Shown here: positions 9,409-41,582 of the stretch, in pieces | Layout: the number at the start of each line of letters is the position of its first letter | How positions within the stretch are numbered: the first letter of the stretch is position 1 | Source of the DNA: Hyphomicrobiales bacterium | Lineage (GTDB): Bacteria; Pseudomonadota; Alphaproteobacteria; Rhizobiales; Rhizobiaceae | Length of the DNA stretch: 62,453 nt | Direction: 5' to 3' | Assembly (NCBI GenBank): GCA_011087605.1 | Contig: JAALLE010000011.1 | Coordinates: 1-62,453, forward strand | Program-made: the position numbers and the translations under genes | Notes under the pieces: generated by a model | Database searches by the model: none | What the model saw: the letters and a program-made list of their open reading frames with translations, nothing else | Told to the model about the DNA's origin: nothing

Positions 9409-9533
9409 TTGCAACAGATTGACGCAGATGGGGAGATATTCCATAAGTCGCACATGGGGTTTGCGAACGCCCCGTGAGGCTCAGGCCCAAGAATCGCATC
9501 CACAACATCTCAGCAACGAGTAAAGGATGCACT

Positions 9534-10343
9534 ATGGCTTCTCCAAATCAGATTACCGTTTCACAACTTTCCAGGCTTATCGGCACGCCCGACTGCCCGA
9601 CACTCATTGATGTTTGCATTGATGAGGACTTTAACGACGATCCACGGCTGATACCGACAGCCCGGCGACAACCATTTGCCAAAATTCTTGAACTTGCAGC
9701 CGAATTGCAGGGGCAGCGGGTTGTGGTTATTTGCCAGAAGGGCAAAAAACTCAGTTCCGGTGCATCTGCCCTGCTTCGTTCAGCCGGCATTGCTGCAGAA
9801 GGCCTTGAAGGTGGCAATTTTGCCTGGCGGGATGCCGGACTGCCGCTGGTTCCAGTTGCGAATATTCCACCACTGACGGCAGACGGCCACACGCTTTGGG
9901 TCACACGCCACCGGCCCAAAATCGACCGCATTGCCTGCCCCTGGTTGATCCGGCGTTTCATCGATCCACGTGCGACGTTTCTTTATGTCGCCCCGGGAGA
10001 CGTGCTTGAAGTGGCCGAAAAATTCAACGCCACGCCGTTTGATATCGAAGACGTCTTCTGGAGCCATCGAGGCGACCGGTGCACGTTCGATACGATGATT
10101 GAGGAGTGGAAAATAACCAGCGAAGCGCTGGAGCGTCTGGCGAACATCGTCCGTGGTGCCGATACCGAGCGCCATGATTTGGCTCCCGAAGCAGCAGGAC
10201 TTCTTGCTGCATCTTTGGGCTTGTCACGCATGTTTCGGGACGATCTGGAACAATTGGAAGCCGGCATGTTGCTGTATGACAGCTTTTACCGCTGGGCCCG
10301 CGATGCCCATGATGAAACCCACGACTGGCCGGCCGCAAAATGA
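9534..10343 (+). CDS. chrB: Rhodanese-ChrB fusion protein, chromate resistance
   Basis: The 269-residue protein has two parts. Residues about 1-105 are a rhodanese-like domain with its loop cysteine in VVVICQKGKKLSSG. Residues about 115-265 are the ChrB C-terminal domain, shown by TRHRPKIDRIACPWLIRRFI, FLYVAPGDVLEVAEKF and CTFDTMIEEW. ChrB-type proteins sense or help detoxify chromate. The stop codon overlaps the start of chrA by 4 bp. The start at 9534 has AAAGGA upstream. Confidence 0.9.
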   Translation: MASPNQITVSQLSRLIGTPDCPTLIDVCIDEDFNDDPRLIPTARRQPFAKILELAAELQGQRVVVICQKGKKLSSGASALLRSAGIAAEGLEGGNFAWRDAGLPLVPVANIPPLTADGHTLWVTRHRPKIDRIACPWLIRRFIDPRATFLYVAPGDVLEVAEKFNATPFDIEDVFWSHRGDRCTFDTMIEEWKITSEALERLANIVRGADTERHDLAPEAAGLLAASLGLSRMFRDDLEQLEAGMLLYDSFYRWARDAHDETHDWPAAK

Positions 10344-26421: not shown

Positions 26422-27369
26422 CTAGACCGGTTGCGCAGAAACGCCGGCCCGAGCACCATCTGCTCGCGCTTGTGATTTGATTTCATTAAGAATTTCTGCC
26501 CCTTCGCTGCCCTGAATAGCGGCGATATCGTCCTGATATTTTAGGATCACACCCAGTGTATCGGACACGGTTTGCGGATCGAGCGCCACCTTGTCGAGTT
26601 CCATCAGTGCGGTTGCCCAATCCAGCGTTTCGGCAATGCCTGGATTCTTGAACAATTCCATTTGCCGCAATCGCTGAACATAATCAACGATCTCGCGCGA
26701 CAAAGCTGCATTGGCGCCCGGCACTTTCAGCTTGACGATTTCCAGCTCCCGTTCAGCATCTGGATAATCGACCCAGTGATACAGACAACGCCGCTTCAGT
26801 GCGTCATGAATTTCGCGAGTTCTGTTTGTCGTGATGATGACAATTGGCGGCTCGGCTGCCCGAATTGTCCCAAGCTCAGGAATCGTCACCTGAAAATCAG
26901 ACAAGATTTCCAGCAAGAATGCTTCAAAGGCTTCATCGGTCCGGTCCAGCTCATCAATCAGCAGAACCGGAGCCCGGCCATCGACCTGTTGCAACGCCTG
27001 CAAAATCGGCCGCCGGATCAGGAATCGCTCGGAAAATACATCATCTTCCATCGCATCCCGGTTGGTGTCGCCGGACGCCTCGCGCATTCGAATATCAACC
27101 ATTTGGGCCGCATAATTCCACTCATAGACCGAGGAAGAGATATCCAGCCCCTCGTAGCACTGCAGGCGAATCAACGGACGGTCGAGAGCCTCTGCCAGAA
27201 CCTTGGCGATCTCGGTCTTGCCAACACCCGCCTCGCCTTCAAGAAAAAGCGGACGCTGCATCTTAAGCGCCAGATACAGCACGGTGGCCAGCGAACGGTC
27301 AGCCACATAGCTGGAGGACGTCAGCATCTCTAAGGTGTCGTCAATGGAAGCGGGAAGTGAGCGGCTCAT
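26422..27369 (-). CDS. coxD: MoxR-family AAA+ ATPase, CoxD-like
   Basis: The 315-residue AAA+ chaperone has Walker A in LEGEAGVGKTEIAKVLAEAL, Walker B in APVLLIDELDRTDEAFEAFL and sensor 1 in PPIVIITTNRTREIHDALKR. These match the MoxR/CoxD group that partners VWA proteins in metal-cofactor insertion. It is the first gene of the maturation operon (coxD, coxE, two xdhC pieces, molybdopterin-binding protein, MobA-like). A strong terminator lies 58 bp upstream, insulating it from the preceding RNA and lysE unit. Confidence 0.9.
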   Translation of the reverse strand: MSRSLPASIDDTLEMLTSSSYVADRSLATVLYLALKMQRPLFLEGEAGVGKTEIAKVLAEALDRPLIRLQCYEGLDISSSVYEWNYAAQMVDIRMREASGDTNRDAMEDDVFSERFLIRRPILQALQQVDGRAPVLLIDELDRTDEAFEAFLLEILSDFQVTIPELGTIRAAEPPIVIITTNRTREIHDALKRRCLYHWVDYPDAERELEIVKLKVPGANAALSREIVDYVQRLRQMELFKNPGIAETLDWATALMELDKVALDPQTVSDTLGVILKYQDDIAAIQGSEGAEILNEIKSQARADGARAGVSAQPV

Positions 27370-27427
27370 GGGTCTCGGCTGATAAAGTGCTTTGCCAGAA
27401 ACCTACACGTCTATGCGGCTCGGTAAA

Positions 27428-27449
27428 AGGCACCATGTCCATGGTGCCT
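27428..27449 (-). terminator. Rho-independent terminator
   Basis: Perfect 10-bp inverted repeat arms (AGGCACCATG / CATGGTGCCT) are separated by two bases. Read on the minus strand the hairpin ends in TTTTA, so it should stop transcripts from the lysE side before coxD. Confidence 0.8.
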
Positions 27450-27621
27450 CAAACAATTTGCCCGCCCCTGTTCAATTGAAAGGGACGGGCAAAGGTTAGT
27501 CGCTCAGGGGCGGTGGACGACTACCCTGTTTGAATCGGAAAACTGCAAATTCGACTTCGTTACACCTGCAAGTTTCTTCATGAGCTATCTTTACCGCGCA
27601 GAGCTCTCCGTCTCTGTGCGG
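27428..27621 (-). ncRNA. Candidate structured intergenic RNA with five successive hairpins
   Basis: The 276-bp gap between lysE and coxD has no plausible ORF but packs five inverted repeats in order on the minus strand: 27594-27621 (9 bp with one mismatch), 27540-27575 (AAACT...AGTTT plus an inner GCA/TGC), 27494-27525 (8 bp with a bulge), 27457-27493 (8+4 bp around one mismatch, TTTGCCCG...CGGGCAAA) and the terminator at 27428-27449. Two of the hairpins abut exactly. This looks like a small RNA or a long structured 3' UTR of lysE. I recognise no known family; the 5' end is a guess. Confidence 0.5.
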
Positions 27622-27645
27622 TTATGCACACAACAAAAATTGTTT

Positions 27646-28242
27646 TCAGGCTGTCAGCATCGGCCACAGGGATAATACCAGGGCGATTGCCATGGTATAA
27701 TTGAAGATCTTCAATTTTAGCGGATCTTTCAGAAAATTACGCATTATCGTGCCAAATCCTGCCCAGACCGTCACCGACGGAAAATTAATCACGCAAAAGA
27801 CAAAAACTACAATGGCGACATTCAACAGGTAATTGCCGTCCAGCGTGTAGGTCGACATGGCGACCATCGCCATTACCCAGGCTTTCGGGTTAACCCATTG
27901 AAACAATGCGGCTTCAAACAATGTCATTGGTCGCGCCGTACCGGATTGCGCTTCCACCGGCCCGGAATGGGCGATTTTCCACGCCAGATACAGCATATAG
28001 GCGCCACCTGCCAGTTTTACCCCCATAAACAGCATAGGAGTTGAATTCAGCAGCACGCCAAGCCCCAGTCCAACCGCCGCCAACAGCACGCCAAATCCCA
28101 GGGATATGCCGATCGCATGGGGGAAGGTTCGCCACCACCCGAAATTAACGCCGGAGGCAAACAGCATTATGTTGTTCGGGCCGGGAGTGATCGAGGATAC
28201 AAATGAAAAAACCAGCAATGCCAGAAATGTCGTCGTTAGCAT
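27646..28242 (-). CDS. LysE/RhtB-family amino acid exporter
   Basis: The 198-residue inner-membrane protein has six predicted helices. It begins with the family signature FSFVSSITPGPNNIMLFASG and contains GAYMLYLAWKI and ALFQWVNPKAWVMAMVAMS. Members export amino acids such as lysine, threonine, homoserine or branched-chain residues. It is the last gene after ilvI-EamA-ilvH. A perfect 12-bp inverted repeat lies 11 bp upstream of its ATG, so it may be controlled separately from ilvH. Confidence 0.92.
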   Translation of the reverse strand: MLTTTFLALLVFSFVSSITPGPNNIMLFASGVNFGWWRTFPHAIGISLGFGVLLAAVGLGLGVLLNSTPMLFMGVKLAGGAYMLYLAWKIAHSGPVEAQSGTARPMTLFEAALFQWVNPKAWVMAMVAMSTYTLDGNYLLNVAIVVFVFCVINFPSVTVWAGFGTIMRNFLKDPLKLKIFNYTMAIALVLSLWPMLTA

Positions 28243-28253
28243 GATCCACCCTT

Positions 28254-28282
28254 CAATTAGGTAAGCAATCCTTACCTAATTG
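28254..28282. promoter_or_regulatory. Perfect 12-bp inverted repeat upstream of lysE, candidate operator
   Basis: CAATTAGGTAAG and its exact reverse complement are separated by five bases in the 60-bp gap between ilvH and the lysE-type gene. Neither strand has a T-run long enough to make it a convincing terminator. The symmetry and its position 11 bp before the start codon suggest a repressor or activator site, or a hairpin limiting access to the ribosome binding site. Confidence 0.6.
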
Positions 28283-28302
28283 ATTTTACGGACAGTTGCA
28301 AG

Positions 28303-28896
28303 CTACATACCCTCGGGCCCGCGATTCATCGCGGCAATGCCGGTGCGGCAGACTTCCACCAGACCCAAAGGGGTCATGATTGAAATAAACTGTTCGATCT
28401 TTTGCTGACGTCCGGTGATTTCAAATACAAAATGCCCGACATTGGCGTCGGCGACCTGGGCACCAAAGGCCTCAGCCAGGCGCAACGCTTCAACGCGGTG
28501 CTCTCCGGTGCCGGCCACTTTCACAAGCGCCAACTCGCGTTCAAGCGGTTTTTCATAGCCCAGACGATGTGCCCGTAGCGTCAGATCGACCACCCGGTGA
28601 ACCGGCACCATGCGCTCCAGTTGCCGCTTAATTTGCTCCAGAACCTTCGGCGTGCCCTTGGAAATGATGGTAATGCGCGACAGGTGTCGGTCATGTTCGG
28701 TTTCCGATACGGTCAGGCTTTCAATATTGTAGCCGCGCCCCGAAAACAGGCCGATCACCCGAGCCAGAACCCCGGATTCGTTGTCGACCAGAACCGACAA
28801 AGTGTGCTGGACAATCACTTCTCTGTTTTCCGAGATGAAATAGGCAGAGGCAGGTGGTGTCACCACCTTATTTTGGTTCTGAACAGTGTCACTCAT
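28303..28896 (-). CDS. ilvH: Acetolactate synthase small (regulatory) subunit
   Basis: The 197-residue regulatory subunit of acetohydroxyacid synthase binds the branched-chain amino acid feedback inhibitor. The ACT domain is evident: HTLSVLVDNESGVLARVIGL, FSGRGYNIESLTVSETEH and LERMVPVHRVVDLT. The start at 28896 follows an AAAGGGG site. It lies 4 bp after the EamA gene, which separates it from ilvI; direct ilvI-ilvH adjacency is the commoner arrangement. Confidence 0.96.
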   Translation of the reverse strand: MSDTVQNQNKVVTPPASAYFISENREVIVQHTLSVLVDNESGVLARVIGLFSGRGYNIESLTVSETEHDRHLSRITIISKGTPKVLEQIKRQLERMVPVHRVVDLTLRAHRLGYEKPLERELALVKVAGTGEHRVEALRLAEAFGAQVADANVGHFVFEITGRQQKIEQFISIMTPLGLVEVCRTGIAAMNRGPEGM

Positions 28897-31647: not shown

Positions 31648-31716
31648 TTTTAGTTCCCATTTTCCATTTTGGAGCCCAGTGCTCCCGGTTTAAATTCCAT
31701 TTGGTCGGTTGACCAA

Positions 31717-31740
31717 TAAAAAAGGCCCCCGAAGGAGCCT
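31717..31740 (-). terminator. Attenuator terminator in the ilvI leader
   Basis: On the minus strand a 7-bp GC-rich stem (AGGCTCC with GGGGGCCT, allowing one G-U pair) with a 3-base loop is followed by six T residues. It lies 69 bp before the ilvI start and 27 bp after the leader peptide stop, the layout expected for a transcription attenuator. Confidence 0.88.
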
Positions 31741-31767
31741 GACGCGCGTTAGCATTCGTGGTGATCA

Positions 31768-31824
31768 CTACCTCACCACGCCAACGCGCTTTCTCACCAC
31801 TACCAGAATATTAGTCACACTCAT
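31768..31824 (-). CDS. ilvI leader peptide
   Basis: An 18-codon ORF, MSVTNILVVVRKRVGVVR, contains one Ile, one Leu and seven Val codons, with four branched-chain residues in a row at positions 6-10. AGG lies just before the ATG. Its 3' part overlaps an 8-bp perfect hairpin (31757-31780) and a 10-bp pairing between 31780-31789 and 31744-31753. The composition strongly suggests that ribosome stalling on scarce charged Val/Leu/Ile tRNA controls the downstream terminator. Confidence 0.85.
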   Translation of the reverse strand: MSVTNILVVVRKRVGVVR

Positions 31825-41158: not shown

Positions 41159-41217
41159 GTTGCCCGGCCCGCCATCGCCCCATTGGCAGCGGGCAAGCTG
41201 ACAATTGCAATCAACCC

Positions 41218-41246
41218 TTTCAAAAGCCACCAACCGTGCCTATATT
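41218..41246 (+). promoter_or_regulatory. Candidate promoter for ssrA
   Basis: TTTCAA (41218-41223) and TATATT (41241-41246) are separated by 17 bp and lie just before the first folded part of the tmRNA gene. Confidence 0.5.
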
Positions 41247-41251
41247 GGGTT

Positions 41252-41582
41252 TGTCGGGGCAACCCGACTATGGTGATAAATGACCTTTGTAATAAGCCAT
41301 TCGGACCCGGGGGCGGTACCCGGCGCCTCCACCAAACTGCACAGGGCGTAATGATTGCGCAGTTTGGCGGGGGCGAAATAGGATCGACGAGGGTGTAAAG
41401 ACTGCGTTTTCACTCGGCATGGTACCCACCGATATCGGGCCATTATAATAGTTGCAAATGATAACAACTATGCGGAAGCACGGATCGCAGCGTAAGCTGT
41501 GCTAAGTCTTCAAATTAACTCCTAGCGGTTCGCACTGTTAGGCGGGGTTCGGAGGTACCTGGCAACAGAAACCTCCACTAAT
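41252..41582 (+). ncRNA. ssrA: tmRNA (ssrA), circularly permuted two-piece form
   Basis: The acceptor piece comes first and ends with GCCTCC-ACCA at 41325-41334. An intervening hairpin segment (AAACTGC...GCAGTTT) follows, then the coding piece beginning GGGGGC at 41369, which pairs with GCCTCC to rebuild the acceptor stem. GGATCGACGAGGG resembles the conserved 5' tmRNA region. The tag reading frame at 41454-41495 is ANDNNYAEARIAA then TAA, and the 3' pseudoknot region ends near GGAGGT...ACCTCC at about 41576. This gene order is characteristic of alphaproteobacteria. tmRNA rescues stalled ribosomes and tags the product for proteolysis. The outer ends are approximate. Confidence 0.93.

Follow-up and report, generated by a model that had tools for sequence, protein, structure and literature searches.

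A covarying hairpin pair between lysE and coxD as a candidate small RNA gene within one bacterial genus

The stretch of DNA analysed here (the window) comprises 62,453 nucleotides and is contig C33 of a host genome of 4.19 Mb in 177 contigs, from an uncultured member of the Rhizobiaceae. It carries a gene for a LysE-type translocator (lysE), with ilvH (acetolactate synthase small subunit) upstream, and then the gene for a MoxR/CoxD-like AAA ATPase (coxD), which is followed by genes for a CoxE-like VWA protein and an XdhC/CoxI protein. The gap between lysE and coxD lacks any ORF of at least 60 aa, in agreement with the initial annotation, which had read it as an undescribed structured RNA on the minus strand: five hairpins in a row, the last of them a terminator with a T tail, making up a small RNA or a structured 3' UTR of about 200 nt that could regulate the lysE or cox units. 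The gap is present in a single copy in the host genome (E <= 0.001), which speaks against a repeat element. Other RNAs were recognised elsewhere in the window, namely the Rhizobiales sRNA Atu_C8 (RF02502) at 31708-31822 (minus strand), just 5' of the frame for the acetolactate synthase large subunit, a chrB-a cis-regulatory RNA (RF03078) at 9451-9536 (plus strand) and a permuted alphaproteobacterial tmRNA (RF01849) at 41214-41579 (plus strand). The features of the gap and its flanks are collected in Table 1.

Table 1. Genes, putative signals and hairpins at the lysE-coxD gap (window coordinates)
Feature	Position	Strand	Remarks
LysE-type translocator (lysE)	27646-28242	minus	PF01810
Palindrome TGTGCATAACCGCACA, probable CRP/FNR-family operator	27615-27630	minus	TGTG-N8-CACA in 13/13 loci
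First hairpin of the initial annotation	27594-27621	minus	broken in G002; outside the conserved unit, in the promoter region
-10-like hexamer TAAAGA	27588-27593	minus	shared offset from the palindrome, 13 loci
Predicted sRNA transcript, ~132 nt	27450-27581	minus	both ends inferred: start from palindrome/-10-like spacing, end from terminator
Hairpin 1	27494-27525	minus	9/9 pairs changed on both sides, 84.6% of cells paired (13 genomes)
Invariant loop letters GCCCCU	27506-27511	minus	identical in 13/13
Terminator hairpin	27457-27493	minus	12/14 pairs changed on both sides, 94.4% of cells paired
T-rich tail	27450-27456	minus	weak in the window (AATTGTTT); long T runs in several relatives
Last hairpin of the initial annotation	27428-27449	minus	near-perfect palindrome AGGCACCATG-GA-CATGGTGCCT, then TTTT; broken or absent in G002
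Probable promoter box of coxD (GACGTGTAGGTTTC)	27398-27411	minus	T(G/A)TA box 5' of coxD in 12/13 loci
MoxR/CoxD-like AAA ATPase (coxD)	26422-27369	minus	

For the minus strand of 27425-27645, the predicted folding energy is -86.1 kcal/mol, compared with -61.2 +/- 4.6 for its shuffles (z = -5.4), and none of the 200 shuffles is as good. The inverted repeats lie where they were first placed, and two of the stem-loops abut at 27493/27494. The plus strand is likewise well folded (z = -4.6) and the gap contains several strong palindromes, which would suit chance hairpins, or a palindrome or repeat element acting at the DNA level without any RNA. Since one well-folded sequence cannot tell which hairpins matter, relatives were examined.

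With the gap as query, BLASTN gave a match better than chance in the sister species G002 only (E 8e-58); the runner-up had E 0.02. When the region 5' of coxD was inspected in the relatives, the element was found in 13 of the 15 genomes of the genus (G000-G003 and G005-G013); the putative sRNA is invisible to BLASTN past a sister species, yet it can be found via the same gap beside a conserved gene. Its plan within the genus is hairpin 1 with a CGATCGCCCCTGAA-type loop, followed by a terminator hairpin of freely changing letters. In the alignment of the 13 genomes (A5), 21 of the 23 pairs have changed on both sides and 90.6% of the cells pair, the latter value dropping to 37-53% after sliding by 1-3 columns. 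None of 500 shuffles of A5 reaches any of the five measures, a count which is not to be taken as a probability because the sequences are related. These compensatory changes uphold the reading of the gap as a structured RNA on the minus strand. They contradict an origin of the hairpins by chance or at the DNA level, which is also at odds with the single copy of the gap and which we consider scarcely credible.

As judged from the alignment, the conserved unit is hairpin 1 plus the abutting terminator hairpin, throughout the genus. In hairpin 1 the stem varies more than the loop, a pattern that a seed or binding site in the loop would be expected to show. A model of the element matches 13 of the 15 genus genomes at 51-87 bits (E <= 4.9e-11), with one strong copy in each; these 13 are the model's own training sequences, so that the result demonstrates the copy number and not an independent discovery. 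In G004, where coxD and ilvH are ~3.4 kb apart, the model yields nothing but a weak match at another site (E 0.0056); in G014, a 0.9 Mb genome with no match to coxD or ilvH, it finds none.

The five hairpins had been described as one unit, which is true only of the two forming the conserved pair; the outermost two are broken in G002, and the weaker fold at ~27541-27577, predicted in the window and at a similar place in G002, is absent from the 13-genome consensus. The first hairpin is located between the palindrome and the -10-like hexamer and so probably falls outside the transcript. The last hairpin does end in TTTT and may represent a second terminator, but in this species only. Most likely, the RNA ends with the terminator hairpin that abuts hairpin 1, for which the covariation and the T runs of the relatives speak; a simple consensus scan flagged neither this terminator nor its T tail. 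Two additional candidates were rejected. Pairing of the loop with the G-rich 5' part to form a pseudoknot is unsupported (mean z -0.11 over the 13 sequences, lowest p 0.08). A frame from 27581, considered as a leader peptide, has 25 codons in the window, whereas in G002 it stops after 7 codons.

Between lysE and the RNA lies a conserved promoter-like region. Its TGTG-N8-CACA palindrome precedes the loop letters by 106-121 nt in all 13 loci, and the fuller form TGTGA-N6-TCACA occurs in eight of them, the window not being among these. The listing from which these counts come had required the palindrome itself; no locus was lost by this, because the model search gives the same 13 loci. A TATAAT-like hexamer, counted without gaps from the palindrome, yields 36 summed matches, a value reached by 11 of 2000 shuffles. 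The shared offset of the hexamer would put the palindrome centre near -41.5, which is the class II position of CRP-activated promoters. A consensus scan of 27200-28400 gave no sigma-70 promoter. The predicted transcript, ~132 nt, is shorter than the ~200 nt proposed initially.

Across whole genomes, TGTGA-N6-TCACA is not above the control in G000 (one site, control 2) and G002 (4 vs 4), and it is above the control in G006 (4 vs 2), G011 (11 vs 0) and G013 (12 vs 4). The host genome encodes Crp/Fnr-type proteins, with eight matches to PF13545, five of them above the cut-off. Two of these proteins (L205 and L206) have, as read by eye, an RE-VVSR helix, which we take to resemble that of E. coli CRP. 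The helix IETISR of L204 is presumably FNR/FixK-like. Also by eye, L207 has the helix PENLSR and L208 has an ArsR-like look.

In 11 of the 13 loci the RNA comes immediately after lysE on the same strand, and it might be the structured 3' UTR of that gene (or of an ilv-lysE unit), from which a 3'-derived sRNA may be processed. However, no lysE was detected upstream in G005 or G012, in the latter of which the element directly follows ilvH, and the promoter-like region separates lysE from the RNA. We therefore find this origin improbable, and of the two forms suggested in the initial annotation, the small RNA is retained and the lysE 3' UTR is not. In the window, the RNA also stands directly upstream of coxD on the same strand, as a cis-acting leader (attenuator) would; nevertheless, coxD has a promoter-like box of its own in nearly all loci (Table 1), and 1.2 kb separate it from the RNA in G011. 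A leader of coxD is thus very unlikely, and the earlier idea of a cis element of the cox unit is abandoned.

Rfam (release 15, gathering scores) has no family in the gap. At a relaxed threshold, the best match within 27300-27750 (E 1.5) is a thermometer that misses its gathering score by 39 bits, and the loci of 11 relatives gave nothing relevant. In the accessible parts of the literature searched, including PMC3927594, we found no description of an RNA in the lysE-coxD gap, and one may be in print elsewhere. The sequence letters GAUCGCCCCU did not occur in the literature searched. A conserved RNA structure that lies between genes and closes with an intrinsic terminator agrees with a trans-acting bacterial sRNA, and the predicted RNA represents a new family within this familiar kind.

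Several known systems are close to it in some respects. CyaR is a CRP-activated sRNA of enterobacteria which pairs through a C-rich or unstructured region. The element resembles it as a predicted sRNA gene behind a CRP-type site with presumed pairing via a C-rich loop, whereas no relation in sequence or in Rfam was found, and a CRP/FNR-family regulator and target mRNAs are presumed here. The “cuckoo” or anti-Shine-Dalgarno type sRNAs of alphaproteobacteria are defined by CUCCUCCC loops; the plan of a C-rich-loop hairpin followed by a terminator is common to both, but the loop in alignment A5 is CGAUCGCCCCUGA, and Rfam matches of the CUCCUCCC-loop type in the window are elsewhere than in the gap, or there are none. 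Atu_C8, too, is a structured Rhizobiales RNA near the ilv genes; it differs in place and family, and the model of the element scores its site at only 10.1 bits.

To follow the spread of the element, the model was run with strict filters on samples of 61 genomes of relatives, 397 of the order and 394 of the family. Matches occurred in 67 of the 397 order genomes at E <= 0.1, the host genome included, and in 21 of the 394 family genomes at E <= 0.001, six of these being in the genus. We read 26 match loci (L094 improperly, with its short flank) and 27 of a further, overlapping set of 29 (L094 and L102 were skipped); of the 15 family matches outside the genus, 14 were read (G642 was left out). 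Among the loci read outside the genus, none combined the loop letters with the palindrome, and most were ordinary-looking terminators; GCCCCT occurs in a different context in L078, L272 and L284, and L280 (G718) has a stretch resembling hairpin 1 but no terminator. A strict core pattern, searched over 84,980 species genomes, was found in seven contigs, all of G001, G005, G006, G007, G008, G011 and G013; it was built to fit those genomes and tests the spread of that core only. All seven contigs come from metagenome assemblies of uncultured Rhizobiaceae. Other genera in which ilvH is followed by a lysE-like frame (L141, L142 and L145, inspected by eye) lack the element, the best model scores being 6.3-7.1 bits, and plasmids and phages gave no relevant match.

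Other hairpin-terminator arrangements came to light in these searches. In L093, L095 and L101 (family f38 of the same order), a nearly identical element consists of GGCATCGTG...GTCGTCCCTAGTAA...CACGATGCC and then a terminator; it has no Rfam match, and it is similar to the lysE-coxD RNA in plan, not clearly in descent. L097 and L098 (family f23) have a similar hairpin pair with a common GCTCCTGTCGCCGTCCCGAG stretch ahead of the terminator, also with no Rfam match. The recurrent 16-mer CCATGGACATGGTGCC, a short exact match in many relatives, was discarded as unrelated to the hairpin, being held in protein frames: it is present in 10 of the 12 loci examined, nine times inside one conserved protein (...IAMDMVPRISRAQ...), presumably alanine dehydrogenase/pntA-like, and once in another frame.

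We suggest, with a probability of roughly 0.7, that the element is an independent gene for a trans-acting sRNA under a CRP/FNR-family regulator; its transcription, the regulator, activation rather than repression, mRNA pairing and the targets are what we infer from the sequences compared. A CRP/FNR-family protein would bind the palindrome, probably near -41.5, and activate the promoter. The resulting transcript of ~115-135 nt would consist of a variable 5' part, the hairpin with its C-rich loop (CGAUCGCCCCUGA in most species) and the terminator hairpin. It would probably act in trans, with the exposed GCCCCU pairing with G-rich stretches, such as AGGGGC, of target mRNAs. Enterobacterial CyaR likewise pairs with target mRNAs.

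Candidate targets were sought with the complement of the loop. The 14-nt complement, with at most one mismatch, has 32 matches in 15 genomes, eight of which are the RNA gene itself, compared with three for a control that contains CTAG and is a poor one; no gene is shared among the 30 matches with loci. The seed AGGGGCGA before ATG gives 99 matches in four genomes against 33 for the control, and of the 60 examined, chosen for a short gap, 25 have a frame of at least 40 aa, none related to another. For the seed CAGGGGCG before ATG, there are at least 154 matches (control 23). Instead of pairing with mRNAs, the loop could bind a protein or another sRNA and titrate it as a sponge; the stronger conservation of the loop than of the stem and the lack of a shared mRNA target would fit this. 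Yet no partner is known, and the search for targets had a limited reach (for a single seed, 60 of its 99 matches in four genomes, and one 14-nt complement). We rate a sponge without mRNA pairing as unlikely.

Going beyond the trans-acting sRNA gene itself, one may tentatively see here, at slightly less than even odds, a genus-confined sRNA family that would have originated at the ilv-cox junction and whose structure strong selection would have maintained. Its invariant C-rich loop would answer to a CRP/FNR-type signal and serve globally for pairing or titration. The element adds a small-RNA family for which a hypothesis is ready, with a regulator site, a seed loop and a terminator. A small hairpin, CTTCAGGGGCGATCTGAAG, was also noticed in L157 (G012:C43:13342-13355); it has no Rfam match, stands directly before a terminator and carries a loop complementary to the GCCCCU-type loop, which may mark it as a partner or be coincidental.
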